64,000 nt of DNA from Thuidium tamariscinum (Eukaryota; Streptophyta; Bryopsida; Hypnales; Thuidiaceae): the NCBI GenBank assembly GCA_947034885.2, contig OX344750.2:33962821-34026820 (forward strand). The letters run 5' to 3'. The notes beneath the pieces are model-generated. The model made no database searches, was not told the DNA's origin, and saw only the letters and a list, made by a program, of their open reading frames with translations. Below, one piece after another: positions 10,047-64,000 of this stretch. The position numbers and the translations under genes are program-made. The stretch's first letter is position 1. Each line of letters opens with the position of its first letter.

Positions 10047-11119
10047 CTAATCATACTCTGACTCAATATGTTTCATGTAGTGAGGATTCGTAACGGGAAC
10101 ACGGCTGAGCGACACCTGCGGCCGGAGGAGAGCGGGCCGCTGGTTGTGGTGCGGGACGTAGTGAGTCTCCGTCATGCCGGGCCGGAACTCATTTCCCATG
10201 GAAATATACTCCGCGTCGTGATAGCGATGATTCTTGAACGACGGCATGCGGCGCACGCCGTAGTATTCACGCTGCAGGTCCACAGGCGCAAGCGCAGGTC
10301 CCGGACGACCATCGTACCGCTGTACTCGCCCAAGCGAGGGTTGCTGGTTCATGCGTCTGTCGAACGAGTTCACACGTCGAAGCTGTTGGGGCACAATCGG
10401 TGCTTGCATCAAGGGCGCCTGCACAACGGGAGCACGCATCATGGGCGACATATGGCCCTCGTGAGGGAAGCGGCCGAAGCCACTAGAGTTCGCGCGAACA
10501 AGTGGGTTCGTCGTGTAGCGCGACTCGCTGAAGCCGTTAGCGTTAACGAGCGCGTTGTTGTTTCGGGCGCTCTCGATGGGGAGGCTGGATGCGTTAATAT
10601 AGGTGCTGTTGTTGAAGAAGGAGGATTTCTTCTTCACTTTCTTGACTTTACGGAGAGCTTTCAACGGATCCACGAAGCCAGTGACAGTCACGCGCTGGTT
10701 GTACTGGTCGCAGATAACGTCACGCACACCGTCCAGCTCCTCGAGCTCCTCCTTCACTTTCTCCTGGCACTTCTCGCAGCACATGGGCACTCTGAGCTCT
10801 AACACCGGGAGCTTCGTGTTAAGCCCATTGAGCACCTGGAAACCACGGTTCCGATCCAGGTACATGTTGGGGTAGTCTAGATCATCTTTGCTCGAGAAGA
10901 GCTGCATCATTGGAAAACAAATATGGAACACAGGGTCAAGAAACTAAAAATGGAACACAGAAAGTTGAACATATCTGGACCAGGAAACCCCTAGCACAAA
11001 ATTGACACGGAATACAAACAACCTTAACTAGTAATCAAAACATGCGAGCCCACAGCAACGTAGGGATGGAACAGGTGAAACAGTACCTCCTTAATTCCCT
11101 CTTTCAATCGACTCGCCAT
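10047..11119 (-). CDS. Heavy-metal-associated (HMA) domain protein
   Basis: Two exons: 11119-11087 encodes MASRLKEGIKE; 10901-10047 encodes the rest. Total 295 residues, junction in phase 0 with a GTACTG donor and ATGATGCAG acceptor. The HMA domain spans about residues 43-110: LPVLELRVPMCCEKC supplies the metal-binding CxxC (C53, C56), followed by VKEELEELDGVRDVICD and the second beta strand QRVTVTGFVDPLKALRKVKK. The rest is a basic, Asn/Pro/Arg-rich tail with PVVQAPLMQAPIVPQQ-like repeats. The protein ends IESEYD with no CaaX box, so it is an HPP-type metallochaperone-like protein rather than a prenylated HIPP. The tail is probably disordered. The upstream ATG inside the intron (10931) gives a longer open frame but lacks a good context; splicing explains the data better. 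Confidence 0.85.
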
Positions 11120-23926: not shown

Positions 23927-26900
23927 TTACATAAAATAACTCAAAGTGGTCTTCTTGCGTGTGCCACCCTCTCCGTACTGCTCATTCCATTGCTGAAGCT
24001 CCATCATGCTTCCTGCATCGGAAGCCACGCTGGACCGCACCTACAAACAGCACAAGAACATTCAGACCAGCGACCGTCGGCAAGCACGGTCGGCAGACTG
24101 AACTTGAAACATCACCACAACGAGATCGAAAGCACCGATACACGCAGATACAATTGGTATGTACAAGATCATAGATCTACCATACCTTCTCCATAGCCTG
24201 GCGCATATCAGCATTAGTCAAGGGACGCAGATACGGCGTCACTCCAGCTTCGGCTTCAGGTGGATCCAAACCCTTCGCTTTGGCCGACTCTTTATCCTGA
24301 ATGGCGTTCACAAACAAAAGCACGAGAATCAAAAATCCACTCAGAAGGGACACCAAAATAGGAAAAGGAAAGATTCAGCACATCCGTCTTCGACAGACAA
24401 TACAGCAATCGCACCAGATATTGGGGATCCTCAACTGCACTGGGTGTGAACTTCGTGCGGGTCACAAAACAAGTGGAAACAAAAGATGTAAACTACTTGG
24501 CAGCATTGCAGACTCCCAAATCCCAACACTGTATTTGAAAACTACTCCCTCCGTCCCGTTTGTCAAGTTTTATAAGGTTGTTTTGAGAAGGTCAAAAAAA
24601 TACTTTCTTATGGCTAATTTTATTAAGGTTGCAATGAACACATGCAATGCTCTTCACATGACTCTAGTGATATAATTATGTTCTTCCCAATATGGTCAAT
24701 GACATTGCCTCAAAAAAGTATCAAAAAAATTGTGGACAATCATTTCGGGAGTATATATCACTGTGGACGGTCGTAATTTTTCTGGTCCACAAGATAAGGA
24801 GTGATTGAATCAAGTCGCCATTTGCAAACGAAACAGACGAAAACCGACAGATGTAGCAGGCTGCATTAAAAATGGACTGGGGCTATGATGAAACACTTCA
24901 CCTTCTTCTCCTGATCGAGCAATTCCCTTATGCGGCTATACGCAGCAGTTGTGCATAAACTCTGCCATGCGATAAACACCATTCAGCACAGGAATCCATA
25001 CAGAATTAGAATCACAGTCCCTGCCCTATACTATATCTGGCTGAACATAAAAACTTCTCAAATACAACAAACGACTTGAGGAGTGATGTGCGTCGAAAAA
25101 ACCTTCAAGTCACTGCCTGAGTATCCATCCGTCGCAGCAGCCAACTCCTCCAAATGGAAATCGGGGGCTAAATCTTCCTCTGCCAAGATCACTTTCATAA
25201 TTTTCGTACGGTTGTCTGCGTCCGGCAGATCGATCATCAACCTGCAAACGAGCACTACATCATATCAAACCAGAAGCGGGAACGTGCAGCGTTTGAGAGC
25301 AAATTGGACGGACCTAAACCTCACATCAAGAGATGACCGTAAAAACGTAAAAACGGTATTTTACATTTCACTAGGAGAAAAGACGATCACAAATCAAAAC
25401 AGAAAGCTCGTGACTGACCCCGGAACTAAGCGAAAAACAAGCTCAACCCAAGACGGTACATACTGCAGCAGATCGATCCAGGGCTTTCTGCTTCAGACGT
25501 CCATGGACGGGACAACTTACACCGTGACGGTAACAAAAACTCAACCCATCTCACTTCGGACAAAAGCATCTGCACGAACTTGTCAAGCACCGATTTCAGA
25601 TCAAATCAGACACACCTCACTGCACACAGAGAAACCAGTACCTGCGAGGAAACCTGCGGATTACAGCTTCATCCAGATCAAACGGTCGATTGGTCGCCGC
25701 CAAAACCAGCACGCGCTCCCTCTCCCTAGTGCGCAACCCATCCCAACTGGCCATGAACTCATTCTTCAACTTCCGCATAGCCGAGTGCTCAGTGTCTTTT
25801 CCTCGGCGACCAAGCATACTATCCACCTGCTCATGACAAGATAATCAACTCAGAGACACTCAACATGCGAAATTTCCAGAGATGCACACAAACAACGAGT
25901 CCACGAATCTACATTCCTAGACCCTAAAACACATCAGATAAGCTGACCACGACACACAGCAATCAACAACTGCACCAACAACTCCAGACTGAAGAAAAGC
26001 AACCCCAGCACGTGCCGAGACACGAGAAATGGCCACAAGCATCGGACCAGTTCCACAACCCCAACCACCGTACCTCGTCGATGAAGATCACACTGGGCGA
26101 AATCTTGCTCGCTAAGGTGAACACAGCTTTCACATACTTCTCAGCTTCTCCGAACCACTGCACATACAAATCAACTCCTCGGTAAGAAAAAGAAAAAGTT
26201 CAAAAGTCTGCGGAAACTACCGAGCAACTCACATGCCAAGAGAACCACATGCCACGCACGGATTCCGCTTAACGTCCATCGAGAGCGAATGAATGGATCG
26301 ACGTGATCTCTTTGCAGAAATTGGCGACCACAAGCATTCCCTGAGTACGCTGACTTCGGAGAAAGGAGGAACAGGAACCTTGGAAGCAATCGTGGACATG
26401 GAAATGTTGATAAAGTTAGCCCCGGCTTCGGTCGCAACGGCCTTGGCTAACATAGTCTTGCCGGTGCCTGGTGGTCCAAACAGTAAGAGGCCCCTGCATG
26501 GCTGCGCACAACAGGCACAAAACTCGGTCAAACAAATTCACTTCCTCGCATCATCGGAAACCAGGACGAAAACAACCATCTTTATCCAAAAGAAAATCGG
26601 GGCCCAAGTCAAATACACCACAGACTTCGACCACACCTCTGAACATGCAGGACTGGAGCTGGAAGGGAGGGAGGAAACTCCTACAGTCCCTAAGTCACGT
26701 TCCCAACTACGCAACCATCCAGAGATTGCCTACGGCATTGTGCCCATGAGAAAGACACGACGAGAAGCTGAACTCACAAAACTCACCTTTGTCAGCTGCC
26801 CCTTCACAAACAGCTCCGGGCGCTGCAACGGAAGCATTACCAATTCGCGCAGAGTCTCTTTCACGTTGTCCAGGGCACCTATATGGTCGAACGTGACCCC

Positions 26901-29900
26901 GAGCTCGTCAGGAGGAATCACCTCCGGCAACAGCATCTTCTCAAACTCATTATCGGTGACAACATCCTGATCCACACGACAATGTCAAAAGTCACCTTCG
27001 GGACAACAAGATCGTGTTACTTCTGCAATGGAAAAACAGCGAAGCACACAGCAAGCAAAGAAGCAAGAACGGAGATCGACAGGCGACAATACAAGATTAC
27101 GCGTTCTGCAACGACCACAATCTCGGACCCACAGTTATTCACGAGGACGCACTCCGAGGCCAAATACCTTCAAACTCTTCTTCCGAGACGACGGACTCCG
27201 CTGCACAGACTGCAGCTCGGCCAAACTGTGTTGCAAACTGACGCCAGAATGCACAGCCAACGATGTTAGGGGTCGGTACGAACGGAAGCACGTGAAAAAT
27301 CGGAGAGTAGGGAGAAAGTCTTCAGAACTTCTAACGTTTCTGCTCAGACTCATTCTTGAACACGGTAAACTCGTTGTCCTTGCAAACTTCTCAAGACCAG
27401 TGAAGGTAATGCTGGAAACTCAAAGAGACCAGTGGACTCAAACGAAGCACGAAAATCAACGAACCTCTCTGCTTCGATAACAAGTTTATTGCTCCGGAGA
27501 ACAGGCTCAGACTTCCGCTGCAAGTGGTGGCTGATACCCCACCCAACAACCTTCTCCGACACTGCAGACACTCGAAAGGAAGAACGATGCGTGAATACCA
27601 CTGCAGAAACTCTTCCAAGAGACCGAAAACGAAGGACCTCAAATACATACGGAAACAAAACAAGAGTTGCACCAAGAATGATAAACAAAGAATTAAACGA
27701 TCAAAATGAAGATCAAGGCTAGTCCACACTCCGCGAAAAAAGAAAGGAACAGGTTGTACTCAGGCCAAAGGGTTTGACATACTTTCTTTCGTGAGAAGAT
27801 AAGTCCGAACATCAATGCTCGCGAGGTCGTCACATTCGACATTCGAAGCTCCCATAACCTGGTCACAAAACGGTGGACACCGGTTGGGTTTTGATACTTG
27901 TACTAAAGATCCTTACCAATCATCCAGGAGCGGACTATCTCCAGTCTCACAGCAAGTACCGAACTCATCTCCAGGGATATGAAGGACACTGAGATAAGCG
28001 AGGTCTGACTGCCATTACTTCGAGAATGTTGTGCACTACGACCTAACAGGTCGATAAAAATTTGAATGAAAATTGAAAATTGAAAAATTAGTTCATTGTA
28101 AGATTGTGAATTAGAGATGTCCATGTAATGTTTCTGGTACGAGTCGTACAGGAAGTAATCAAACTATGATTAGTCTTAAGGGACGTTTATAAAACAGGTT
28201 CACTGAAGTAATGTTTACAGGGCTGTCAATTGGATCGGCAAACCTTTTTTTTAATGGATCGTAGTCGAAATCTTTGCAGTATGTATTATTGTTTTAGAGG
28301 AGAGTATTTGCAGCAGAGTAGGAATTTAGGTAATGGAAAATGAAAAATAGGATGAATTCAATTGCAAAGGTCTGCTACACATTAGCATTACAGAATCAAG
28401 AAGCAAGTGCAGAATCATGCTATGAAAGGGAGTCAAACCATGCGAAGTTGCTGTCTGTTCGCCTCTGCTTTTAGCAATTCCGTGTCCTGCTCCAATTGCC
28501 GATTCCAATCTGCCAATTGAGGCTCTTCCTGCACAGAACGAAATTGCGGTTCAATACTCGTTGTGCGAGAAACAGACTGTAAAACAAACGATACCACCAG
28601 TCCTGCACATAGAGCTTAATAACTGCTCTTACACGACTCTAACGACATCACATGTCTCGCATGCAAAATTCATAATGCTCATACACCTCAAACCCACTAA
28701 AGTTAATAGCCTAGCTAGCTAGTGAGTGAAACAGATTTGGAGAGGTCCACTAGCCATCCGCTTCTAACCACTTGCAGTGAAGTACTTAAACTCCCTAAAC
28801 TACTTCAAAGTCTCGGAAGTAATATTTCTACGGAAACTTGCCTACGAGGTCCTCAAAGTGTGCTGAAAGCATACGAGGACGTTATGGGAGAGGGAGGTCC
28901 CATTAATAAATTGCATAACTAGTCGAGGGACTCATACTGATTACTTGCAAAAGAGTAAAAGAAACAAAGTATCAATCCATCCCACTTGGGATCCAGCCTT
29001 ATCAATCCGTAAATCCAGTTTGAATAATCATCACTGCGCCCGAGATAGCATGAGTTGAACAGTGAAAGCTTACTTGAGGTTGCTGCAGATGAATTTTAGT
29101 GGGAAATAACTTGACAAGCATTTTCGAAGCTTTGGGACCGTCCATTTTGTAGTCTTCCATGCGGGACGCTAAATGATCCTAAATTGATGCGTACAGATTG
29201 ATCAACACACAGCTGGTTCGGTCATATACTAAAAGATAAAGCAAGGATACTTAGAAATCCACAAAGTAAGAGGACGATTCACATATCAGTGGAACTGGTC
29301 GATACATCAGACGTTACTAAAGCCAATGACTCCTCTTCAAGGAAAGATAAATGCTTCAGGTAATCCAATAAGGAAACATAACTCCCGTGCAAGACTGACT
29401 TATCAATGCGGGTCCCACTACGATTAAAACCCAACAATAACATCACGGGTAGTAAGAAACTCAATCTAGAACACCCTGTCTCGTAAAGTTCCTTCCAGAT
29501 ATCATGTTCATGACTAAAGATTTACCACAAAGAACGAAATCTTTAAGTCAGTTAGTTGCAACTGCGCTCTCAAATTAGTCTCAACCAGGGAAGGAAAAAT
29601 TGCCTCACTGTAGACATGTCGGAGTTAAAAGACACAAAACATACCAAAAAAGAAAGATCCAACAGGGCAGTCACGTTATTCCCAACTTTTGAAGAGCTCG
29701 ACGAACCCCCGTTACCCTGCAAAACATCAACGAACAACCCAATCAACAAAATGACCCAACGCGTTCAAAGGCAGGAAGACAAAGAACCTACACCGCCAAG
29801 ACTATGGTCACTTTCAGGAGACCAAGATAAAGAGAAGAACAAGACAATCCACGTCCTCAAATACAATGTCAAACGTAATGACTCAGACCCAGTCAGGGGG

Positions 29901-47370: not shown

Positions 47371-47512
47371 TATATATTATGATTGGCATTTTTGTCTTCT
47401 ACAATCAACATTCAAATCTTATGTAATTTCAATTAAGCATACCAAAATTTGGGTTTCAAAAAAGTAAAATTCCATTTTTGGTAAACTATTTCATTCAAAA
47501 TACATAGTTGTA

Positions 47513-47976
47513 CATGATAATTCATTAAAAAAAATTGACGAAGAATTTTAAAATTCAATTGTGCTAATATGTTGGAAACATCCACATGCATATCTTTCCT
47601 TCAATAAGTATTTCCAAAAAGGTTTTGAATTTCTTCTAAAAGGCTTCAAAAGGTGGGTTAATAATGTTCAAATTTTGGAAAATTCATATTTCTATTGTAA
47701 TTAGAATTCTCTATTTGATCTTTAGATTTTCAATTATTTTGCACATTTGACCATGATGGTATACTTGCCTTGCTAAAATCTAATTACAATAAAGAAATAT
47801 CAATTTTCCAAAATTTGGACATAGTCATCCCAACTTTAGAAGCCTTTGTGTAAAAATTCAAAACCTTTTTCGAGATGCTTATTGAAAGAAAGATGTACAA
47901 GTGGATGTTTTCAACATATTGTTATAATCAAAATTAAAAAAATTCATCATCAATGTTTTTTTAGAGAATTATCATA
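47513..47976. repeat. ~460-bp fold-back next to CACTA element
   Basis: Arms 47513-47713 and 47773-47976 are imperfect reverse complements: ATGTTGGAAACATCCAC pairs with GTGGATGTTTTCAACAT, AAAAAGGTTTTGAAT with ATTCAAAACCTTTTT, and CAAATTTTGGAAAATT with AATTTTCCAAAATTTG. The loop is about 60 bases. It ends about 30 bp before the left end of the CACTA element and is not part of it. Confidence 0.8.
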
Positions 47977-48043
47977 TAAAATCCTTAAAATTTAATGATA
48001 TAATCACTACTACAGGAGGGGGTGCTTTCAATAATTTTTTCAG

Positions 48044-48943
48044 TTAAAAATCGCATATTGGAAGGTCATGACTTTTAAGGAAATTTTACTGAAAAACATG
48101 TGTCTAGGACACGATTGAAAAGACATTACTGAAAATGCACCCATGGACTTTTTAGTACAATGGGTAATGTCTTTTAAAATTACCCGTCTGGACATGAAAA
48201 CTTATTCAAGCATCTTTGCTGAATAATAAGAGTTTCCTCCATGACGACACCTGTCAATTTCTGAACATTTGCACCCGTTGATTTAAATTGAATTCTTTAC
48301 AGATGCTTGACACATGTTCTCTGCTTATTGTGTAACTGACGAAATTGTGCTCTAGATTCGCTTCCATTTATTCCTATCAGGGTTTAGGAAATTCTTTTTG
48401 ATCATGCACGTCATGCGCATGCAATCTCCGTCACTGTATTTCTGAAACAGTGACGTCCCTCAGTTTCCGATCACAGGCTCAAGATAAGCACGAAACACAA
48501 AGGAATATTAAATAACACTTTATTTCTTCATGCACTCGTGAGTGCATGAAGAGGAAAATACAAAGCCACCTGAGATTCCAGTAAGGCGGTTCTACACATA
48601 CTGTGCTATGGAGGAAGAACTGGTTTGCAATATCCCATATGCTCCAATTCACAAAGCATAAGTCTCCTGACTCATATGCCTCATGACCACGAATACCTCG
48701 ATGTCTGCAATACGGAGTTCATCCTCTGACACTCTTATGCGAACACAAATAACATGACATGCACACATTCATACATGGATTGAGAAAGTGATCGAGCTTC
48801 CACATTCTCTCGCACACCTACATAGAATTTGAACAGCACGCACAGGACATTGCCCTGAAAGCTCACTTCCGTTCGTCCAAACTACCGCAAGCACACCCTT
48901 CCAATGACACGCGGGAGCTGCGAACAGGGATTCACTTGAGTAG
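48044..48943. other. Left subterminal region of CACTA element
   Basis: About 0.9 kb between terminus and the end of the TnpA-like gene. Short motifs recur (ACTGAAAA, GTAATGTCTTTT/AAAAGACATTAC), as expected for TnpA-binding subterminal repeats. It also carries the 26-bp palindrome at 48526. Confidence 0.5.
48526..48551. repeat. 26-bp palindrome
   Basis: CTTCATGCACTC and GAGTGCATGAAG flank GT: perfect 12-bp arms. It lies inside the left subterminal region of the CACTA element, beyond the stop of the TnpA-like gene. It could be a protein-binding site or an RNA hairpin near the transcript end. Confidence 0.85.
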
Positions 48944-51900
48944 TCACATGCGAAGAAGAATCTCCGGCCACACAATCATGCACCCTTCGGCATCCTTAAT
49001 TGTTTTCTCCTTGACGTGATCCTTCCAACCCGATGGAAACGGACAGGACTGTGCTCCACCATTCGCACTGCAGGAGGTCACTTTAATCGTACACCAACCC
49101 TTCGGGACTATTTTCTTGCAAATTTAGAACCAGTGAACCCCATGAGGACGCACTCACCAACATTGACTTCCTCTCCTTCTACGTTTACCACCATCTTCAT
49201 TGCATCACCACATTCCATGCTCTGCACAGGAATATATATATCTCACGGTTCAGTTATGAAGCTATTTACTCCGCAATAATCATTGAAAACCTAACTCCTA
49301 TTCTTCAGATAGACGTCAAAGGAATACCATGGTTTCTATCGATCATGTCAGTACTCCTGTATTTTCAAACCTACTGTGACTACATTTCATTACTGAAAAT
49401 CATGTAAGTGATAAAACGGGAAAATAGGGAATCCCTTAGTCATGTCAAGCATTCAACCAGCCATGCCGTTCACTGCTGAAGGATCCTTCATTACGATATT
49501 TGAGATGGAAACTAGACGGCCACCTCGGCACGTGATGAAACACAGCAAGAAATTTGGCTATGGAGCATAGATCATGGATCAGAAATCTCGAGAACGTCTG
49601 AGTCCACAAACTGAAATCCTCCTTAGTCATGAATATGGAACATACTCCACATAGAAATCACCGAAGTGCTTTTCTTATGGACATCGAAAGCAAGCACAGA
49701 AGTCCACAGTCGTGAAAACCTTAAAGAGCGATCCAGAATTCTCATGAGCGCTTCCTGATCATCAAATTGTTATGACATAACAATAGCAAGAGACGCTGAT
49801 GTGCGGCAACTACCAGCAACCACACCTCTCACAAATGTGTGCATTTGAGTGACATAAATATTTTTATCATAACCGTCTTGGAGCATTGCCTCTTGTCTTC
49901 ACTTACAACAGGACATTCTGAATATGCATACCTATGCACTCACGACTGTAAAACATGAATCAACACGAAGTCGTTCTTTCTCTTACCTCACAAGTATTTA
50001 CGTCAAATATTTCTTTCAGTGCAGTTCGGCCTAGCCTAGTGCGTGTCGAATTTGGCGGTGTCAACTTTTGAAATTCTTTTCCACGCTTCCAATTCACAGT
50101 TACGTCCGCGAAATTCTCACCGAGCCCTGACAACAAGGATGCTTTCTGTCCAAGAACTGAAGATGGTGCCGCATTCTGTTTTGTAGCCTGCGATGCTGGC
50201 AAAGTCCACCAGAAACCGTTAATTACCAGGATAATAAAACAGAAAAGAGCATTCCCATTAGCGGCTCTCCCCTTAAAAAGTAACATCATCGCATTTCACT
50301 AGTTACCTCGCCGGATGTCTTCGACGTTTCCCTTCCCATCAGTGACGTCCAGTCTCACCTCGGTGAATTTCCCCATCGAGTCCCCCTGAATCTGTACATT
50401 CATTTTCGTCAAGAACAGTTCTATCGCAACTGCTACTGGTCAAGAATTGCTCCTGTGCAGCACAATGTACCTGCGTTGCAGGCGCAAGCAGATGGCTTCC
50501 CATGCATGCGCTGGTTCTTCGAAATTTCTTTCACAGACTAAACGCTACTACTTTGATGTGTTCTCCATGTTTTACACGTACAAAACCCGCTACGGCTTTT
50601 CCCTCGCTATTAATTCAGAGTCCATCAAGCCAATAACATGAAACGTTTGTTCACAAGCAACTCCATGAGTTCTCTTAGAAGAAAACATTACCTTCTTCGA
50701 ATTTTCAAGCCACTCCAATTGACGTCGCAGGATTTTTATTTGATTGTCCGTACTCTCTTCCTCTGCGGACACACAGTCTTCCAGAAGCGGCAACTGCTTC
50801 TTCATTTTTGCAGAATTTCCAGACTCCCTTCCCTACGATTTCCAAAATTTTCAATGACTAAAACTTGGAAACAAAAAAAGGGACCGAAGCAGTTAACCTT
50901 CCAGAACTAAGGAATATTAAAACTCACCCTCGTTTTACGTGACCCACATGCCAACGCTGTCTCCTGTGATTGCTTTGCAAATCCGGGTTCATCCTCTTCA
51001 ATAGTATCGACATCAATTTCCTTTCCACTTGCAACCTAAATTGTACATGTCCAGGGCAGCACATGTCAGAGATTTCCGAACAACATTTCAGGAAGTTATG
51101 GAAACATACCAATTCATGCTGAGCCCCCCCCCAAAAGGGCTGCATCTCACTGTTTTGTCAACGAACCCCTCCAGTTTCACTATGTCATCGACCTGCTCCG
51201 CAATTTCGACTTGAAATTTCCCTGCTTTCAAATTCGACGTCGATACATGCTTGAGGTCGGCAATGCCTTCACTCATTTTCTTGATCTTTTTCCAGTGAGT
51301 CTCTCTTACGTCTTGCACTCTCTTACGTCTTGCACTTGTACTTGAGTTGCATTTTTCGATTGCGCATGAACTTAGTAGCTGACTTCTCAAACATCTCTCT
51401 GTCTTTGTGAGAAAACCCTTCGAACTCCCACTCCTTTTCTAAGGCATGCCACATACTGTCGACCACATTCCGTGGATGATGATTTATGTTGTCCATACTT
51501 GGGTCGAGACGGCTGCACTGCCCACGGATTGCTGCTTTCCACATCTGCCTATGAATGCCTCTTGGTTTGCTCGTACCGTCCACTGAAATGACGTACGGTG
51601 ACTTCTTCAATGCCTTCCGATTGTTGGTTAACGTCCGTGCCCTCTGCCATCGCCAACGGTTTAGTCTACGTGTTCGTAGAGCTCTTTGCTCAGGAGTGGC
51701 ATCCTCAAGCAGAGGGAAATCTTCCTGAGAGTCCGAATCCTCACCCGCGCTGGTCCTCGTCATTTCCGACTTCTTGTTGCGCTTAGCTTTCGCAAGGTGG
51801 AACGCTGATTCTTTCCACGTTCCGCCGGGAGCACTATCTTCAATTCCCATCGACGGGAAACCCACTGCCTCTTCTCCGAAAAAGTGCAGCAAACCTGATG

Positions 51901-52174
51901 ATGACCCGACCAATGAAGTCGTCGCTTGCATGAACGCACGCATGACTATTTCTTGAAGTTTTGTATTCGATTGGGAAGAACCAGGACTAGTTCCTTCTCC
52001 TCCGCCAACAGGAAATCCTACTGCACCGGAAATCATGGGAGTTGACCCCGTCACGTCAGTTAATCTTGGATGGCTTGTGCTCACTTGTAATGGATTCCGT
52101 GACTTATTGAAAAAGTTCGATTGAGAAGAAGCATCAGAGCTCGAGTCAGTGGTTCCTTGCACTCCATGCTCCAT
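48944..52174 (-). CDS. TnpA/TNP1-like protein of CACTA element
   Basis: The first exon (52174 to about 51327) is open for 280 codons: a Ser/Gly-rich start, the acidic/basic stretch EDSDSQEDFPLLEDATPEQ, then ISVDGTSKPRGIHRQMWKAA and HPRNVVDSMWHALEKEWEFEG, which resembles the plant En/Spm-family Transposase_24 region. Further exon-like blocks follow: WKKIKKMSEGIADLKH (about 51300-51140), VASGKEIDVDTIEEDE (about 51040-50937), a coiled coil QIKILRRQLEWLENSKK (about 50820-50692), QKASLLSGLGENFADV (about 50265-49987), MECGDAMKMVVNVEGEEVNV (about 49220-49153), and finally DAEGCMIVWPEILLRM with the stop at 48946-48944. The last block fits the C-terminal signature of TNP1/En/Spm proteins. It probably binds subterminal repeats and partners the transposase. 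Several exon borders are unsure; a 17-bp tandem duplication sits at the first donor. Confidence 0.6.
51303..51336. repeat. 17-bp tandem duplication at exon end
   Basis: CTCTTACGTCTTGCACT occurs twice in direct succession. Each copy contains a potential minus-strand donor (GAC|GTAAGA), so it duplicates the splice site of the first TnpA-like exon. The length is not a multiple of three. Confidence 0.8.
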
Positions 52175-53345
52175 GATTGGAGTCCTTCATCAATCATTCA
52201 TGAAAATCAGTACACAACAATTGACGTCACAATATAAAATGACATTGGAGAATCTCCGTGCAGTTCAAACTGATATTAAGACTCCTGTCACTTAGTACAG
52301 GTAACGTAGAAGCTCTCCGCGACAATCTCATGATTTAAGGAGACGGTGCAGTCTTTGAAAAATAACACTAGTACCAATCATGTCTGCCTCCTCCATCTAC
52401 TGAAATCATGCAAAGACAAACCTTGATTTAAGTTCTTTCAATGACACTCCGGTCACAGTTACGGACGTCACGCTCGACGGTAGCTTCTTTATGTCATAAA
52501 CAGTCTCAGTACACCTCCTCAAGATCTCACAACTCTCCGAAGTGTACGTCTTCAACAGAGCAACAACGCATGACTACTGCTTTTTCCCACACGGACCTCT
52601 GCGTATAGAAGGTAGTGAGGATAAGAAACAGAGAACTTGAACAATTCATCCTCATGTCTTGTCAACTGACCTTCACTTCATGAAGGAAGCATCGCCGTGT
52701 TTTTCCTCTCCGCTGTGAATAGACTTGTCCTGTTTCCATGCTCAGTTCCCATACATCATAGACGGCACCTTACCGTGTACGACGCTAATTATAGAGTTAG
52801 AATTAAATGCATGCCCGCCTGTCCATGGAAAGAGGTGGTGGAGAAATGCAAACTGTAGAGAACTTTCAACACGCTTGCAGATTCTTCTGCACTACATTCG
52901 CGTCTTTTCCTATAATGAATTCATGACTCGAGACCGATAATTTCCGAAAACAGTTGCTTCACTCTACTACCGTTTTTTAAGAAGCTTGCTTATATTCCAT
53001 AAGCTACGCTATCAGAATTTATCCAAACTTGACTACCTTTGGAACAAAATCCATAACAGGAAAATTATCTTTTTACTCTTGCACATGGAAAACAACCTGA
53101 ATTACTTCCTCATACCGAAATTTCAAGTAACAGTACTTTACATTCCACTTTCACAGATTCCTAGAAGTCAAGGTCGAAGGAGAAAACCGTGTAGATGATG
53201 GGGCTGGAAGTAAATCTTCTATCTAAGGCCACATCTACAGAAATGTCCGGGAATATGTACATGTCTACGTGTGCTTCAGTGCCACGTCCGTTAGCATTGC
53301 CACGTCTTTTCGTCCTCTTCGCTGAAAATCCTCATTAAAGACGGA
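52175..53345. promoter_or_regulatory. Shared intergenic region of divergent CACTA genes
   Basis: The TnpA-like gene starts at 52174 going left and the transposase start used here is 53346 going right. No conserved ORF lies between. Any promoter for either gene is therefore probably here; leader introns may also be present. I could not define TATA boxes with confidence. Confidence 0.45.
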
Positions 53346-56300
53346 ATGAAGAATGTACAGCCACAAGAGTCATTTCCATATCGCCAATTCTCTTCTCAAC
53401 TTCAGGTCTTCAGCACCTCCGTTTCCCGTAGTCTCATAAGTATGGCGCAATCTGTTCAAAACCCAGATACACAATCTCACTTGCTGTCAATGACACTCAA
53501 TGCTTTGGAACGCTCTCGAGCTGACCAACGGTTACTTGGAAGTTACAAATGTCCTTGCGTTATGTGCAAAGGTGGAGGGCGTTCGATTCTGAGGGAGACC
53601 ATCGATAGGCATCTCCGACAACATGGAAGAGATCCCATTCTTACGCACTCTATGATTGTAAGCTCCTACTTCACTATACTTCTACTGCTTTCAGATTTTA
53701 GTGAAATGGAATGATGGATGTACCCAATAGTATTAGGGTTTCGTTTTTGGAACACACGTCTCCCAGTTCTCTTCAAGGAACGCGCTTGACAGTCCACTCT
53801 ATAATTCATAAATACAAACGGGAAATCCTTTTACGTCAGACAATGAAAACTTGAAAACATTTTTGACCTACACTTTAAACACGTCTGTTTTATTTTGAAG
53901 CAGCATGGCACTTACGAAGGCATTGCTCTTGCCTTCTCAGACACCTATGACCTCCACGTATCACTGTTTAATTAGACATATTTCAATTTTTGCTTATTGG
54001 AATTTAATTACCTCTTAATGCACTTAATTATGCTAACAATATAAAACATTACTTACTGAAGACACTTTGCAGTCATTTACCTTTTCCTTAGTTCTCACTC
54101 TGTCCTCATACACTCTCTGAACCTGGTCTTCGTCTTTCAGTATGTTATATACTTCCGTTTGCAATGTGCTCTGAAGCAAAGATGACATCATTTCCGTACA
54201 AATTTACAGCCCGAAGACTCTGATAGCGACATGTCCGAAGGAGATAGTCTTCCTGAAAGAAGAACTGATGACAGGGAGGAAAGAAATGCTTCTCCTGAGG
54301 CAGAATTCGATCGAGGAATGGATTTCCAGCGCCTAACATCGGAATGGTTTCAGAGGATCGACGAGCGTAGAGAAGCCTTCCAAGGTAGCCCTGAAGATCA
54401 CGGAGAAGAGAATTACGTCGAGGAACAAGATCTTGCAGACGAAGGAGACCCGGACATGGACGAGTGGTTACAACGTACGCAGGTACCATTATACCACGGT
54501 TCTAAGATTTCCACACTTGCTTGTGTGCTTGTCCTCATGAATTTAGCGCACCTGCACAACGTCAGTAATTCATTCATGGATGAATTGCTATCTTTCATGA
54601 CATTAGATGTGCTTCCCATATCAAATGGATTACCTAAAACTCGACAGGAAGCTCGAAGATACATTGACCGCTTGGGGCTATCTTTCAATGTCATTCATTG
54701 CTGTCGAAATGGATGCACTCTCTTTTGGAAAGATAGAGCTAACCTACTGGAATGCCCAAAGTGCCACTTGTCTAGATATGTGTCTGGTAGCAATAGTGTT
54801 CCTGTCAAGGTCCTTCGTCATTTTCCCCTTATCCCGAGGTTGCTACGAATGTACCGTTGTTGAGATATTGCGTCGTTGATGAGATGGCATGAAAAAAATC
54901 CTTCCTCTGATGGAAAAATGCGATCACCTCTAGATAGCCCTGTATGGAAGAAAGTTGAGGAAATTGATTCATCATTTTATCATAACTCCCGGAATATTAA
55001 GCTAGGATTGGCCCTTGACGGTATGAATCCATTTGCTGATATGTCTACTAGACATTCAACTTGGCCAATTCTATTGTTGAATTACAATTTGCCCGGGTGG
55101 ATGGTCACAAAACGTTTTTTCATCATGCTATCCCTTATAATACCGGGCAAAGAGTCTGTGAAATCAGTCAACGTTGATGTATTTTTAGAACTTCTTTTGG
55201 ATGAGTTGCTCCAATTATGGGATGGAGTTCCTGCTATAGACATGTCTGAGAGCCCGCATCCTAAAAGATTCACATTGAGAGCAATGCTTCTATGGACCAT
55301 CCATGACTACCCGGGTTACGGCTTAATATCAGGATGTGCTACTAAAGGATATCAAGGCTGCCCCATTTGTGGTCCTAATGCAGAGTCACGATACTCGAAG
55401 AGTCTGAGGAAAAATTTGTTCCTAGGTCATCGGCGATATCTACCAGGTGGCCATCCTTTTAGATTTATGACTCAAGCATTTAATGGAAAAGAAGAACATC
55501 GCCAAAAACCTCCGAGAGTTTCTGGAGCCCAACATAGAAGAAGGGAAGAAGCTAGAGAAAGATGGCTTGCTGCTGGAGGAGTTCCTGGATCTGAAAGTGA
55601 CCCAGTTCGAAGACATGGAGTAAAAAGAAACTCCATACTATTCAAACTTCCATACTGGGAGGTAAGTTACTTTTTCACCTATATTAATGTGGTATCAGTT
55701 CTTAAGCTATGAGTTCATTAATGATAAGAAACTGCTTCTGTGAGAGCAGAATGTAATTTTGAAACTGTCCTTGTGAGAAAGGAGCTTAGAATTGTGCACT
55801 TTCCTCGTGATGCCTCTCCCCCAAGTTTGTGAATTTCTTTCAATTGTTTGATTCTCATATTGGTTTGTTTTTTCCAGAAATTATTGATCAGACATACTCT
55901 AGATACTATGCATGTTGAAAAAAATATTGAAGAGAATTTGGTAAAAACAGTGTTCGGGATGAAAGATGGCCCTGGTGTTCGAGAGGACATGAGAGAAGCG
56001 GGTTGCAAACAGAGGTTGCACTTACGTCCAGCTGAGCCAGCGGAGAGCGGTTTTTATGTGCCTACAGCTCTGTATATTTTGTCTGAGGAAGGGAAAAAAA
56101 TATTCATGGAGAGGTTATCCAATTTGAAGTCACCAACGGGGTACATGTCAAATATGAAAACACGAATATTTCTTGATGGAACACTTCACGGTCTGAAGAG
56201 TCATGACTATCATGTACTTATGCAACAGGTTTTCCCTGTATGTATCAGTGGCCTCCTTCCCCCTCGAGTTGAGAGAGCTATAATGCAACTAAGTTCAATT

Positions 56301-57883
56301 TTCAAAAAATTGTGTTCAAAATCCGTAGACCCAGCCTTCATGGATGAATTCATGGAAGAAGTGGCCTTCACTCTTTGCTTATTAGAACGTGAATTCCCTC
56401 CATCATTTTTTGACCCCATGACCCATTTGGTAGTACATTTGGCAGAAGAATTGTACTTGTGTGGTCCTGTGCAGAACCGTTGGATGTACCCTTTAGAGAG
56501 ATATATGAAGTATTTGAAATCATATGTTCGGAATAAGGCTAGACCAGAGGGATGTATGGCCACAGGAAATGCAATGGAAGTTGGTTTGGGACTTTGCACT
56601 GAGTACATTCTAGAGTGCGAGTCAACTCGTCAGAGAGTTTGGGATGCCAAAGAGGAACCAGGAGACAATGGGGAGGTTACTTGTTCTGCATTCACTCGAA
56701 GAACTCTCTCACAAGAAGAATGCTCCTGGGCACATTCATGCGTTCTTAGTAATTCCAGTTGCCTCGAAGATTTGAGGAAGTGAGTTATGGGAAGGGGGAA
56801 ACCTTCTATCTGATTATTTATGTAAGAAATAACAATTGGGTTTGTATATTTGAGAGCTCTCTAGAATTGTATGTGTGACTTTGACCTTCTTAATGTGCTT
56901 GTATTATTTGTGTATTCACATACTTCCTTTGGTTTTAATGCACTGATAAGTGTTTGTTGTTGTATTGGAACAGGACTCACGCAGACCTGTTAGCAGAGGT
57001 TGTGAGAAGGAGACATGCATACAAAATGGGAATTCATCCCAGACATAGAAGGCGCCTCCAGTACCCATTGAAGTTGCAATTAGTAGTGGATTTCCCGCAG
57101 TGGTTGGAGCAGTTTGTTCAAGGGGGAGAAATGAATGTCGAGGATGATGTTGTTGACTTATCAGTGCCACCAAGTGTGAGAGTTCGGTCATTCAAATCCA
57201 TGCAAGCATACGGCATGCACTTTCGTACCCTGCCATGTGAAACTAGATTAGTAACGGCTGACAGTGGGGTGACCGTGACTTGTGAAACCATTCAACAGAG
57301 TGGTCGTGTAGATAGAAATCCTGTAGTTGGTTCTGTCACGTACTATAGGAACATAATGGAGATTCTTGAATTGGACTATGGGCGCCTTAAACCTATTGTT
57401 TTGCTTTGCGACTGGGTCGAACCAATAACAAGAGGGACAACACCATGCATGAAAGAAGACAAGTATGGTTACACATCTGTGAAACTGAACAGACTCATGC
57501 GTAGATCATCCAATTCTCTCGTTTTTCCCTTGCAGGTGTCTCAAATTTTCTTCTGCCACAATTTCCATGACGAAGGGTGGTCTGCAGTACTTCATGCGAA
57601 TTCAAGGTTAGCCAGGGTTTCCTATTTACAAAGTGGGAATTGTGCCATATCGTCTTTTGACTTACATGGAAATGGTTCATTGCATCGGATACTTGAAGAG
57701 GACGACATGGACGAGGATGTCAACTTCAGTGTCGGCGATGTTGAGGGGGAGAGGGTAACAACTGATGACTTGGTTCGGGCTCAGCGAATTGTTGAAAATG
57801 AAGCTGAACGGATGGAGAACGAAGGTTCAGAGGATGACACTTTGCTGGAGTTTGAACCTAATGAAAGGAATGCGCACGATTAA
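53346..57883 (+). CDS. CACTA transposase (TNP2 type) with one in-frame stop
   Basis: Four exons with GT-AG borders and matching phase: 53346-53657, 54210-55661, 55878-56779, 56974-57883, 1191 codons plus stop. Exon 1 has a Cys-rich block CPCVMCKGGGRSILRETIDR with RHLRQHGRDP, like the transposase-associated zinc region. Exon 2 is the TNP2 core: RLGLSFNVIHCCRNGCTLFW, PKCHLSRY, LRHFPLIPRLLRMY, MRWHEK, LALDGMNPFADMS (catalytic-type Asp), NYNLPGWM, HDYPGYGLISG and CPICGPNAES. Exon 3 has LDTMHVEKNIEENL and then DUF4218 (HDYHVLMQQVFP to VRNKARPEGCMA, about residues 690-800). Exon 4 has DUF4216 (YGYTSVKLNRL, DEGWSAVLHAN) and an acidic tail. A TGA at 54861-54863 (codon 322) lies between MYRC and DIASLMRWHEK, which the family reads through as sense. 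The frame is otherwise intact, so it is a very recent pseudogene or uses readthrough. Confidence 0.87.
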
Positions 57884-58147
57884 TTTCGATAACCATGAGA
57901 TTACTTTTTGTTGTAAGGGTTCTGCTCTGTAGCACCTTCTTATTGTTGTTCTTTTGGTTTCTTAGGTAGTGATTGTTTTTTTCCTTCTCTAAAGGAATTT
58001 TTAATGTCACTACCAATCTAACTTGTGCATTTTATGTGAAGCATGTCACTGGCAATGACGTAAATGCCATCGAGCTTCTGAAATTCGGTGGAGAACTACT
58101 TTGAAAACAACGTAGCAGTCGCTTGATTGGAATTGACCGTGGATTGT

Positions 58148-58199
58148 GAAGAATAATACGCCTTTCTCTTTTTGAAGAATAATTCGCCTTTCTCTTTTT
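58148..58199. repeat. 26-bp tandem duplication
   Basis: Two adjacent copies of GAAGAATAATACGCCTTTCT-CTTTTT, differing at one base, just beyond the transposase 3' end. Confidence 0.85.
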
Positions 58200-59456
58200 G
58201 AAGTTAGTGTCGGTGCTGCAAGTGGTGTCGCCACGGAAGACTATGCTGGTGACTCGTTCGTTTCGACTTATTGCGATTCTCTCACCTTGAAAGAATAAGA
58301 GAGGGCAGGACGGATAAGGAAGTGAGTAGATGTGGTCAGCAGAACGCTTGAGGGAAGGTGCTGCTGAAAGAGTGGGCAATGAGTGGGATGAATGTAGTAG
58401 TTTGAAGGTCTGAAAGCGAAGTCCAAGAGGGTGGGAAATGATGCACGTGGATTTGTGATAGTCAGTGGTCGGGAGTAAGTAGGGGAGTTAATTTAGAAGA
58501 GGACTCACAGAGTTGGTTTGTTGATGTTAGCAATATTTAGCAGAGATAAGAGTTTATAGCACAGAAGCTTTCTACATAGAGTGATGTCGTCATTTGATTC
58601 AGAGGACCGTGGCTATCGTTGTATTCAGTCCCCAAGAATTTGGACAAAACGTTGGAAGTTCGATGTGGAAGCCGCATTTCAGGGAGGAGCAGGTTGACAA
58701 GTGGGAGTGCCAGGCAGATCTACTTCACTGGACCAGAAGCCGTGGAAATTGCACTCGTTTTGCCGCAGCAGGTATGCTTTGGGATCTAAATCCTAAAACA
58801 GAGCAATCCAAGGCTCTGCACTCACAGGTGCTCAATCTTTCATTTTCAAGTAGTTCCTTCGCAGTGTGATAATTAGATTGGAGTGCACTGTCTGTTGAGA
58901 GGTAATATCACGTCCTGCAGGAGGCGTCTGTTACTGTGTTTCTTCCTCGGATTCATAGCTTTTCCGGAGCACTGATTTTGAACTTCTCTAGTGAAGGTAC
59001 TTTTGTGAGTCGGCAATGTCTTCTAGAATTCCACCGATGACGTAATAGGAATTGGAATATATTTGTTGAAAGGAGTCGTCAGAAAACGTGAGTGAAAGTC
59101 GAATTGGAGAAATGGATGTCTCGGAACTTGGGTGAGTGGAATGAGGCTTCCCGTCTGCATGGAGTGAAGGAATTCTGGGATCCTTTTGTGCTTTTGCTTA
59201 ATCATGTGAAGTCCAGGTCTCTGCCATAGGTAGTAGTGAAGAACTCTTCAGGGGAAATTATGTTTTCGAGTACAGTGGAAGAGCTTGTGAGTGTCTCATT
59301 TTTGCAAGAGAGCTTGAATATGTAATGAGCAGTACTAGTTATGGGAATTGGTAAATGAAAATGTCATTTCCCTTGACGGCATGTGTCCTAGGTAAGTGAG
59401 TGCTTTAACATTTCTAGTTTTCAGAGAGAGTAGAAGCTATAGGGTGAAGCTTTAGT

Positions 59457-59484
59457 GAAAGATTTGGTGAGCACTAAATCTTTC
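59457..59484. repeat. 28-bp imperfect palindrome
   Basis: GAAAGATTT and AAATCTTTC arms enclose GGTGAGCACT, whose ends (GTG/CAC) also pair. A candidate binding site or hairpin in the right region of the CACTA element. Confidence 0.75.
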
Positions 59485-61563
59485 GTCATTTTCTTCCAAG
59501 AACTCATTGGAAGTGTCGAGTTATGGAAGTGGAAGTCCCCGCATTATGAAAATCGCTGAACATTTACTTGCGTTTAGCACATGCGAGGAATTCCTAATCA
59601 TAAAATTTGCCGTGACTCCTGCTGACCGTGCCACTTGTTGAACTCTTTTGACGTCAAGTTCATTTTACAGTGGAACCCACGTTTGAAGACAACGCTACTG
59701 CCCGCACAGGACTTCTGGTAGTGCACTGAATTCCTATTAGGTTTTCCCCACTTCGCCTGCAAGTAGAACCTGCGATTGACTACGTTTTCTTCCAAGAACT
59801 CACCGCATATTCGATGGTATGTGATCTGATGAGAATCCCATTGCTGTGCTGCGCAGAATAGCATTTTCAATGTTACTTGGAGAGCGGGACACTGTTGATT
59901 GTACTGTACAGCACCTGCGAAATGTATGGTTGTTTGACGTTAGAATAATGAGCACGGCAGAGTGGTTTCACAGTAGCAGTGACTGTGGGTCCTTGAAATG
60001 TTTTTTGTTTCCACCTTTGCAGCTTAACTACTGTACATAGTGATGGAATTCAGTCAGTCGTGAAGATGGTGACCTCGAAGACGGCAGCAGGGAATGGTGG
60101 GGGAATGTTACAAGAATTCAAGTCCGCAAATTACAGGAAAGGTAGTCATGTGTAGTGTCTGTTGTGTTGTATATTTGAATTCTCTTACTAAGGTAGTTAT
60201 CAGATTTGTTACTCTCATAGGTAGGTCTTCAAGGAAACTTCGAAAGCACTACCCACACGCTTTATTGTGTGTACTGTTTATAGACAGATGGCAAGATTGT
60301 TTCCCTTCACTGTTTTTCTATGAGTAATGGCGGTGGTACTTCATGTGGAATTTCCCATTGATGTTTGCCATCGTCGTAAGTTTTTATGACTAGCAAAGGA
60401 TGTGTGTGAAGTGCAGAAATTAGTAATCTATGTTCAGGAAACACGCATCATAGGTGGGCAATTGGAAGACAAAGCAGATCGGTGAGTAGGAGCGCTTGAA
60501 GTTTTCTGAGGATTCAATTTCAGTTGAGAACATCTGTACAGTAAGTCATTGAACTTTGCAACAGTCATTGCTTCTTTTAAACACGCATGCATGCCTATCT
60601 AGTATTGTAGTGCACATTTTCGAGGAACCCACTGTAGAAGAGCATGTGTATAAACTTTGTAAATGATAGAGTCCAATGTTTGGCATTGGTGAATTGACTT
60701 AGGTTGAGGGGCTGAAAACGTGAACACATGAGGAGAACTTGTCATTTCAGGAGAGCCGAATCTGTAGTAAGGTAGGTGCACCCAAAAGCGCCAATTTCTC
60801 TACTGTGCCTAGTTCGTGTTATTATGTTGTTCAAATGTTTTTACACTCTTGTTGGTGAGTGAAAGCATGTTCCAACGCACCAAAGAACAGTGGATTTGGA
60901 TACCGTATGCAAAAGTTATTAACAGTCAAAGTGTGTTTCTGAAAGCGCCATCTAAAGTCTGGGTGCATGACTGATTTTGAAAATCTATGCACATTGTACA
61001 GAGCGCTTTAAGGTTAGGAGCCATTTTGGTGTATCTACCTTACAGGAGATATTGAGAAGGGTCTGAAGCTGCGGACGTGTTTTTTTTTGGCAGTGATATT
61101 TATGCGTAGCAGGTACACGTTAGAGAACCACATCATGAAATTTTTGTAGCAGTCATCTGGGTTCATGAGAACAAAAAAGAGGTAGCAGAGTTTTGAGGTG
61201 CATCTGTGATGCAAGTCCGTAGCAGAGTGTCAGTTTCAGTGGAGCCAGTGATCTGTGGAAATTCATGTGCCAGCTGTACATAATTGCTCCGTTTTTCAAT
61301 AAGAAGATTGAATAGCGAATGTAGAAAATGGCAGTGTCTATATTTGACAGGCTTGCAAAGAACTATGTAGTAACTGTAGTCATCCTCTGTGCAAAGGCGG
61401 ACCGTGGAAACAGGAAGGAATATCAAGAGCCATGTACTAATTTCCTCGAATAATATGTTATGCGAACGTCTCAGTTACTGAGGTGAATTGGAAATCCTAT
61501 AGCATCATAGCGTACGAGGTGTCGTATTATGTTTTGTCCGTCACCAATACAGATCTGGGTGGA

Positions 61564-61777
61564 TTGGCCCCCTCGCTCGGCCTTACCATGTTTTACCAAA
61601 GGTGCAATCAAAACAAAAAAGCCCCCTAGTTTGGGCCGTGATCACCTTTACTTTCATCACCCCCTAGCTAATTTGTGGTCTCTGATCGCAAATATGAATT
61701 CAAAATTTGCAAAAAAAAATTCTGTGGAAAATAAAAAATTACAGTGTTTTACCCAAGTGGCCGAGTGAGGGGGTCAG
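61564..61777. mobile_element. Small TIR element nested in CACTA element
   Basis: Left terminus GGCCCCCTCGCTCGGCC and right terminus GGCCGAGTGAGGGGGTCA are inverted complements over about 17 bases with two mismatches. Length about 214 bp, non-coding, AT-rich interior. The target duplication is unclear. Partly similar text (G-run beside CCAATTAAAACGCTC) occurs near 11910 but is not a clear copy. Confidence 0.65.
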
Positions 61778-61779
61778 TT

Positions 61780-62135
61780 CTCCCTACCCCCATTACAGAG
61801 GTTCAGCCACCACTGTCTTCGAAGTCAGTTCTCGTAGTCACCGCGGGAATTTAACTGGAACTGCAAGCCACGGGAAACGGAAAAGTTCAGTTCAGTAAAA
61901 AAGGTCTTCTATACCCTTGTCGATGTTGTGTCTACAGTTTCGTCTAGAAAGTAACGCTAGTTTCTGTGCACGCGACTCCCTTTTCCAGAAAAAATGGGAG
62001 TGCTACACTGTACACATGGAGAAAATCCACAATTCCAGGTTCACTTGACCCTTCAAGCAATATCCGCTTCTGTTGCATTCATTCCACCGGTCCCGTGCGA
62101 CTTTTTAGAAAAGGTAATGGCTTTCCAGTAATTTA
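61780..62135. other. Right subterminal region of CACTA element
   Basis: Between the nested TIR element and the right terminus; no gene. Contains GGTAATGGCTTT, comparable with GGTAATGTCTTT in the left subterminal region. Confidence 0.45.
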
Positions 62136-62181
62136 GTACTGAAAACCCTGCTTGAAAAACACCCTTTTCCTTGTAGTGAAT

Positions 62182-64000
62182 CAACCAAAAATGGAATTTT
62201 TGTTTTTTGAAATCCAAATTTGGTATGCTTATTCAAAATTACTTAAGAATTGAATGTTAATTTTGCAAGATGAAGAATGTTAATCAAATGATGTTTTTTG
62301 CAATTTTCTTTTCAATGACAAAATGGGGTGGGCAATTGAAAGTTGTTGAGTTCTTTACAATACATTCATAATCAACAATGCCTTGGATGCAACACTTATA
62401 TTTGGTCCAAGAAACATTACAAAAATCTAATTATTGATTACACAATATATGTACAATTAATACATGAGATTCTATATAAATCTAGTGTTGGTATTTGAAA
62501 TATCTAAATTTAGAATTAAAAAAATTCATGACTTGTTCTTATGGATCTAAATAGTGCATACTTAAAAGCATTGGAATGCTCTCAATAAAAGTCCAAAAAA
62601 ATAATTTTCCTTAAAAAAAATAATAGTGATTTTTTTGTTGTAATTAGTAAAAATTATAGATGTGCAAGTTTTAATTAGATATTTTTAAGTTTTAAGTTTC
62701 TAAGAATTAACCTAACATTGTTATCAAAACAACCCCCCAAAGCTATTAAATAGTGCCATCTTTTGAGAGGATAGAATAATAAACAATTATTTTCTAAGAA
62801 AACCATACATGAATTACATGGTGGATACATATATCATGTTTCCATTGGTTGCAAAACTTTTTCACAAAATCTAAAAGGGCTACACATTGTTGGGTAGAGA
62901 AGAGCATGTTTAGTAGAACACATGGGATGTCTGGTTGCAAGTTGTTGAGTGAATGACAGGTAAGTGTTGAAAACTCAAATTTTTACTTCAATCTTCACTT
63001 GAATCTTCCATTGGCCCAATCTATGGTGGTTCTATAGAAATAAAAGTAAGAGTTTGTAATAAGAAATAAGCCTTCGGATAGGTAAAATAAAATGGTTAAA
63101 CTACAAGTTGACTGTCCAAAAGATTGACTCCTAAATTTCAAATCTATAATGATTACGAAACGCCTTTTACTAATGGAAAAAATATAGAAGATTCACTATG
63201 TATGTGATCAATCCTACTTTGTCTTCACAAATAAAAAATGGGATAATAATTGTCATAAAAATGATTCCATAGCCTGCAACAAAGTTTACAATGCAAAATT
63301 TTAACAACAACCAGTATCCAAAATAGACTGGGAATAATAAGAACATCACAACGAGCCTCCAAAACCGGCTAAGAAAAACAAATAACAAGTTACAACACAC
63401 GAGTCTTCAATTTCCTTTTTTTTTAATCTCAAATCTTTGATTTTGAGTCTTGAATCTTTTTTCATTCTCAAACTTGAAGAAATCCAACCAGAACTAAGAA
63501 AACTAAATGACATGTTAATTGCGACCTTAAATTTAGTATTATAGATAATTTAAGAATTCAAATGCTAAATGATTTAGCAATTTAGAAAGCTAATAGCATA
63601 ATCTAATCACTTACAAAATTTTAGCTTATGTTAAGATACTGTCCAAAAGTTATTGGAGAATAAAGTGGAGGTCTTCTTCTCTCTTGTTAAACAACCATTG
63701 CTTCTTTAATTTTTAATAACTTTTGATTGCAAACTTCAAATACTATGAGTGAAAGCAATTTTAAAATATTTTATCAATATCTTTAATTTTTGAAAATATT
63801 ACAATAATGTAAAATATTGTTTTAAAGTTGTGAGAGATAAAATCTCAACCTTCTCAAGCAAGAAGATATGAAATGCCTCAAACTTTCATACTAGACAATT
63901 TTTGCATCACAACTCCATTTTATACAAATAAATCCAATTTAAAATTAACATAATGATATAACAACTCTTAAAATTTCAACTTCATCAAAGAAATTGACTA
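62182..64000. other. AT-rich intergenic DNA
   Basis: Composition drops to the AT-rich background immediately outside the CACTA terminus. No gene or element is recognised to the end of the window. Confidence 0.5.

Follow-up and report, generated by a model that had tools for sequence, protein, structure and literature searches.

A well-delimited 14.2-kb CACTA transposon of the moss Thuidium tamariscinum and the divergent gene pair of its large family

Introduction

The founding element of the CACTA transposons, En/Spm of maize, measures 8.3 kb (PMC2613891) and, as far as the accessible portions of PMC2613891, PMC1636069 and PMC8195511 describe it, has a single transcription unit whose alternative splicing gives both tnpA and tnpD. 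A second point of comparison is Tgmt* of soybean, a large and potentially complete element of 20.5 kb for which the available portion of PMC2613891 reports imperfect ends, a 3-bp duplication, a tnp2 domain and subterminal repeats, as well as a single 14.6-kb gene with both functions and a Ptta/PF03004 domain. For mosses, the excerpt available of PMC11704416 gives CACTA elements the largest share of terminal-inverted-repeat transposons in the genome of Ptychostomum knowltonii. We have analysed a 64,000-nucleotide stretch of the Thuidium tamariscinum genome (assembly GCA_947034885.2, contig OX344750.2, positions 33,962,821 to 34,026,820 of the forward strand; hereafter the window) and describe the CACTA element at window positions 48005-62178, its insertion site and the family to which it belongs.

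The Thuidium element has in common with En/Spm the CACTA ends, the 3-bp duplication, a tnp2/Transposase_21 gene, a second element-specific gene and subterminal motifs. It differs in length (14.2 kb here) and in layout, since the second gene lies here on the opposite strand. The likeness to Tgmt* extends to large size, potential completeness, imperfect ends, the 3-bp duplication, the tnp2 domain and subterminal repeats, whereas the single gene of Tgmt* is replaced here by two divergent genes, and its PF03004 domain is without a match in the genome studied here (as it is in the control genomes). With Ptychostomum the comparison is one of abundance only, CACTA elements being abundant in this moss genome as well. 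The element is an ordinary, well-delimited class II transposon, and in its large family the two genes are arranged divergently. Base-exact limits and a site calibrated by empty paralogous copies make it a clean reference for this family, and the divergent gene pair found across the family bears on CACTA regulation, namely on whether the transposase transcript has to supply the second protein too, as it does in En/Spm.

Ends and insertion site of the element

The segment 48005-62178 is almost certainly a single class II cut-and-paste CACTA insertion into an older dispersed palindromic repeat, in which AAT was duplicated. It begins with CACTAC at 48005, ends with GTAGTG at 62178 (14,174 bp) and has a G+C content of ~0.41-0.46, compared with 0.29 in the adjoining 2-kb stretches on both sides. 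The inverted CACTA termini, the 3-bp target-site duplication and a PF02992 transposase place it in the CACTA (En/Spm) superfamily. A sequence-only reading of the window had proposed a complete 14.2-kb CACTA element with intact ends, inverted similarity between the termini and an AAT duplication. Termini, flanks, recurring ends and empty paralogous sites all agree with this, and over their first ~55 bp both ends do align as inverted repeats, imperfect and with gaps. The features of the ends and the site are the following.

47380-48004, no strand: left part of the host repeat, a ~730-bp palindrome
48002-48004, no strand: left copy of the AAT target-site duplication
48005-48060, plus strand: left terminal inverted repeat, imperfect, beginning CACTACTACAGG
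48037-48135: left subterminal ACTGAAAA/TTTTCAGT motifs, exact copies at 48037 (minus), 48088 (plus) and 48128 (plus), candidate protein-binding sites
48100-48113, no strand: conserved left subterminal block GTGTCTAGGACACG
62123-62178, minus strand: right terminal inverted repeat, imperfect, ending CTTGTAGTG
62138-62145, plus strand: right subterminal ACTGAAAA motif, exact copy
62179-62181, no strand: right copy of the AAT duplication, equal to the left one
62182-62286, no strand: right part of the host repeat

The insertion site was calibrated with the host repeat. The 250 bp to the left of the element have 68 matches in the genome (self included), many of them arranged as inverted pairs, and once the CACTA element is removed and one AAT retained, the flanks 47380-48004 and 62182-62286 join into a ~730-bp palindrome that is 75% self-complementary. 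The host sequence is a dispersed fold-back repeat. We aligned eight of its 68 copies through the junction. All eight are continuous there, seven with a single AAT and one with AAC, the state being taken from the better strand alignment; these sites are paralogous and do not represent the same locus in another strain. Because uninterrupted copies of the host repeat carry one AAT at the junction, the CACTA element entered an older dispersed palindromic repeat and duplicated AAT. The empty site with a single AAT on which the sequence-only reading had made its claim depend was in this way found at paralogous positions.

Within the window, exact copies of ACTGAAAA/TTTTCAGT number five, all of them inside the element and four of the five within 140 bp of an end. 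Subterminal motifs as expected of the CACTA superfamily are therefore present, though in few copies and with only one at the right end.

Other copies in the genome

The whole genome (363 Mb in 19 contigs) was searched with the 200 bp of each end. With the left end we scored 40 places (the best 40 of 170 candidates), 38 of which start at the first base of the query. Thirty of these 40 together with one more reached via its right end gave 31 distinct left ends; 29 begin with CACTA, the other two being C5_118937 and C1_449921, and the core TCTAGGA of the subterminal block is present in all 31. The right end was found at four places including its own, and the other three are the far sides of elements with identified left ends.

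Eleven regions were compared with the element for both ends, and both were found in nine. Five of these copies are full-size (14,144, 14,482, 14,767, 14,786 and ~14,900 bp), while the other four are shorter, at 1,926, 2,700, 4,050 and 4,327 bp. An exact 3-bp duplication flanks seven of the nine (TGT, ATA, TTT, TAC, AGA, ATT and CAT); for four of these nine copies, the right end came top by similarity score in a ranking made ahead of the duplication check. The ends therefore co-occur elsewhere with 3-bp duplications, as the sequence-only reading had anticipated, and together with the uninterrupted host repeats they bear out the exact boundaries it had given.

One of the full-size relatives, at C1:44992156 to ~45007060 (L016, L017; ~14.9 kb), terminates on both sides in CACAA and not CACTA, and its TAC duplication is exact. 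Either such a variant terminus was still able to move, or the two ends changed in parallel. Eighteen near-alike left ends (L033, L035 and L037-L052) begin with CACTACAAG and show ~75-78% identity to the element described here. Two copies of this group were traced end to end, C10_41722 (which is L033) and C2_344575; since both are short (2.7 and 4.3 kb), the group suggests a recent burst of non-autonomous copies.

Transposase, second gene and their divergent layout

The transposase gene lies on the plus strand in four exon-like blocks, with exon boundaries and splice sites placed by similarity and open frames only.

53295-53714, plus strand: open frame with transposase exon 1; PF13963 at E (expectation value) 0.12, below its cut-off
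54186-55712, plus strand: exon 2, with an in-frame TGA and, after this stop, PF02992 Transposase_21 (E 1.5e-70)
54861-54863, plus strand: the in-frame TGA, upstream of the Transposase_21 match
55833-56783, plus strand: exon 3, PF13960 DUF4218 (E 3.4e-36)
56939-57883, plus strand: exon 4, PF13952 DUF4216 (E 2.3e-7, 31.7 bits against a cut-off of 30.6)

The Transposase_21 match reaches 237 bits against a cut-off of 28.6. What we take to be the neighbourhoods of the usual D, D and E motifs of a putative DDE catalytic site is visible in exons 2 and 3. A structure model of the transposase was unusable, with a predicted local distance difference test score (pLDDT) of 34. The four exons agree with the ancestral gene model in the portion available of PMC4158355.

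The best candidate for the second gene is read from the minus strand, upstream of the transposase.

51326-52186, minus strand: main exon, TNPA-like by position, identified by similarity to relatives; frame closed at the 3′ end, at a point that relatives read through
50593-50832, minus strand: further conserved coding segment, with matches in five relatives
48947-49242, minus strand: further conserved coding segments (48947-49123 and 49111-49242), the first matching eight relatives

The core of this gene is strongly conserved among the six copies aligned, and segment 48947-49123 is 66% identical in amino acids to its best relative (E 8e-26). In the closest relative, at C4:23435900-23451600 (L053, L054), the second gene is open. 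Layout was examined by pairing 138 transposase-exon matches (of 624 candidates) with 115 matches to the C4 second gene (of 244 candidates) within 25 kb. The transposases were divided into the element's own family (63 members including itself, 63-100% amino acid identity) and a second lineage (75 members, 45-53%). For 61 of the 63 family transposases listed, this copy included, the second gene is found upstream and is read from the opposite strand, with a median gap of 3,950 bp; of the remaining two, one has its nearest match at 22 kb in another layout and the other is without a match. Of the 75 transposases listed for the second lineage, 23 have a distant homologue (22-30% amino acid identity) in divergent layout, one has another layout, and for 51 none was detected.

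On the other side of the transposase (57880-62178), setting aside the nested repeat described below and the terminal region, coding similarity amounts to one weak 43-residue match to one relative. Because there is almost no conserved coding sequence on that side, the product of the minus-strand gene is most likely the one that acts as the CACTA second protein in this family. From the gene arrangement we tentatively propose that this CACTA lineage may obtain its second protein from a divergent gene of its own on the opposite strand, with a two-way promoter region probably common to both genes, so that alternative splicing of the transposase transcript would not be its source. If true, regulation of these elements would be basically unlike the En/Spm model of a single transcription unit for both proteins. 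Provided that the minus-strand gene is the TNPA counterpart, the arrangement, as far as the genes alone are read here, differs from the tandem tnpA and tnpD on one transcript of En/Spm proper.

In a competing reading, which we consider unlikely, the minus-strand gene was captured from the host or has a separate accessory role, and the TNPA counterpart is a fast-evolving gene located, as in En/Spm, 3′ of the transposase. It would fit with the protein giving no significant Pfam match, PF03004 included, although a genome search with the PF03004 profile is weak evidence, as control genomes went unmatched too; PDB sequence searches likewise returned nothing meaningful, the sole match (E 0.56) being a cytochrome b6-f subunit. 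A structure model of the second protein from the relative L053 has a mean pLDDT of 48.7, with residues 211-290 at ~72-88, and gave no PDB match at E <1. TNPA proteins are moreover described, in the accessible text of PMC8195511, as diverging fast between species. Such a gene would nonetheless have to accompany 61 of the 63 transposases of the family as well as 23 of the 75 listed from the second lineage, there in the form of a distant homologue, and the region where TNPA should then lie is the one with the single 43-residue match. The element has a conserved second gene, TNPA-like by placement, without a PF03004 match. In the portions seen of the open-licence literature searched, to which older grass CACTA work does not belong, no divergent TNPA-type second gene is described; the search on opposite-strand genes brought up a grapevine CACTA family in which a fragment captured from a host gene is oppositely oriented.

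Interruption of both genes

The sequence-only reading had placed both expected genes inside the element. This holds in that a transposase gene is present and a second gene lies on the minus strand, and it needs qualification in that the transposase contains a TGA and the second gene, itself without a Pfam match, has an interrupted frame. At 54861-54863 all six relatives compared have a sense codon and the flanking residues align without gaps; the TGA thus looks private to this copy, and a conserved read-through codon was ruled out by its absence from the same relatives. At least one relative, C2_412253, has no stop in any matched transposase exon, and the other relatives compared each have stops of their own. 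The C4 relative was considered as an intact copy and rejected, its exon 3 match containing one stop.

The frame of the second gene closes in this copy where the five aligned relatives all continue. Compared with C2_398930 there is an 11-base gap at the closure, after which similarity continues in a different frame, and in the genome search with the C4 second gene two stops were counted in the match to this copy. The second gene looks broken here, unless an intron lies at the interruption.

Compared with two close copies (over 1098 and 1115 codons), the transposase has ratios of nonsynonymous to synonymous substitution rates (dN/dS) of 0.10 and 0.09; a third copy, for which dS is near saturation, gives 0.07. 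Dating by synonymous change failed, as dS is saturated for three of six relatives. Purifying selection long kept a working transposase in the family, and the frame of this copy was most likely lost later.

By analogy with established CACTA biology, a plus-strand transposase of the tnp2 type (TNPD) would cut at the CACTA ends, while the second protein would bind ACTGAAAA-type subterminal motifs and join the ends. This copy probably no longer makes full-length forms of either protein. It lacks the uninterrupted transposase and second gene of an autonomous element, and because both genes are interrupted it is best regarded as probably non-autonomous now; as both ends are retained, relatives may still be able to mobilise it in trans.

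We regard it as very improbable that the element is intact and autonomous, with an unseen intron or read-through removing the TGA and likewise the interruption of the second gene. The low dN/dS would suit such an element, and the single TGA aside, the frames taken as transposase exons are indeed open, but the TGA sits in a continuous conserved frame, aligned without gaps on both sides in six relatives of which none has the stop, and the minus-strand frame is interrupted as well.

Ends judged from the window alone

Several observations weigh against the account of a delimited element with two divergent genes. Judged from the window alone, the imperfect terminal inverted repeats are marginal. 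The window contains 1384 CACTA...TAGTG pairs, 23 of which have the same 3-bp flank; the pair of the element tops those 23 with a score of 26, and a single pair whose flanks do not match is higher, at 27. Among 60 first-order Markov simulations of the window, a score of 26 with a matching flank was reached in one, and scores above 26 without a matching flank in at least 10. Calling the ends from the 64-kb window alone was for these reasons dropped as marginal. In the genome, two of the nine other two-ended copies have no exact duplication (CTA/CCT and TAG/TAA). For the left end C3_375409 no right end was found within ~15-17 kb, and for C9_224266 a candidate right end with matching CAT within the same distance is unlike the right end of the family and was not counted. 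The C4 copy, closest by transposase among the matches listed (86% amino acid identity), has decayed ends; its region, a twelfth chosen around this transposase, was not scored for duplication. As to the second gene, an unseen intron at its interruption is compatible with splice sites placed by similarity, and no Pfam, PDB or fold match backs a DNA-binding role.

The genome settles the marginal match of the ends, since further copies have the two of them paired, with distance and orientation in agreement. That CACTA and TAGTG words are paired here by chance around an unrelated transposase fragment is, in spite of the one simulation in 60 and the slightly better flank-mismatched pair, extremely improbable given this joint recurrence and host-repeat copies that are uninterrupted exactly at the junction.

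Nested and neighbouring sequences

A further insertion, foreign to the CACTA unit, is found near its right end.

61552-61789, plus strand: nested 238-bp repeat, flanked by 8-bp direct repeats with 7 of 8 bases matching

This repeat has sharp borders and 91-97% identity at 42 other matches listed (of 2122 candidates). Four other copies examined are 97-99% alike, three of them with exact 8-9-bp duplications, and imperfect inverted ends are visible by eye. It is a young and very abundant repeat that landed in the CACTA element. The order of events is readable: the palindromic repeat came first, then the CACTA insertion, and finally the insertion of the 238-bp repeat and the loss of coding capacity, these two in either order.

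A search for captured genes or nested coding elements gave no Pfam match up to E 1 in six frames of 57900-62178 and one insignificant match (SPRY, E 0.14) in 48005-54187, and nothing in the window reached the gathering threshold of Rfam. Outside the element, two likely host genes lie on the minus strand of the window, a heavy-metal-associated (HMA) domain protein at 10047-10943 and a multi-exon AAA-type ATPase at ~24000-28000. Elsewhere in the genome, at C6:12374678-12375161, two half-copies and one full copy of the 238-bp repeat stand in tandem.

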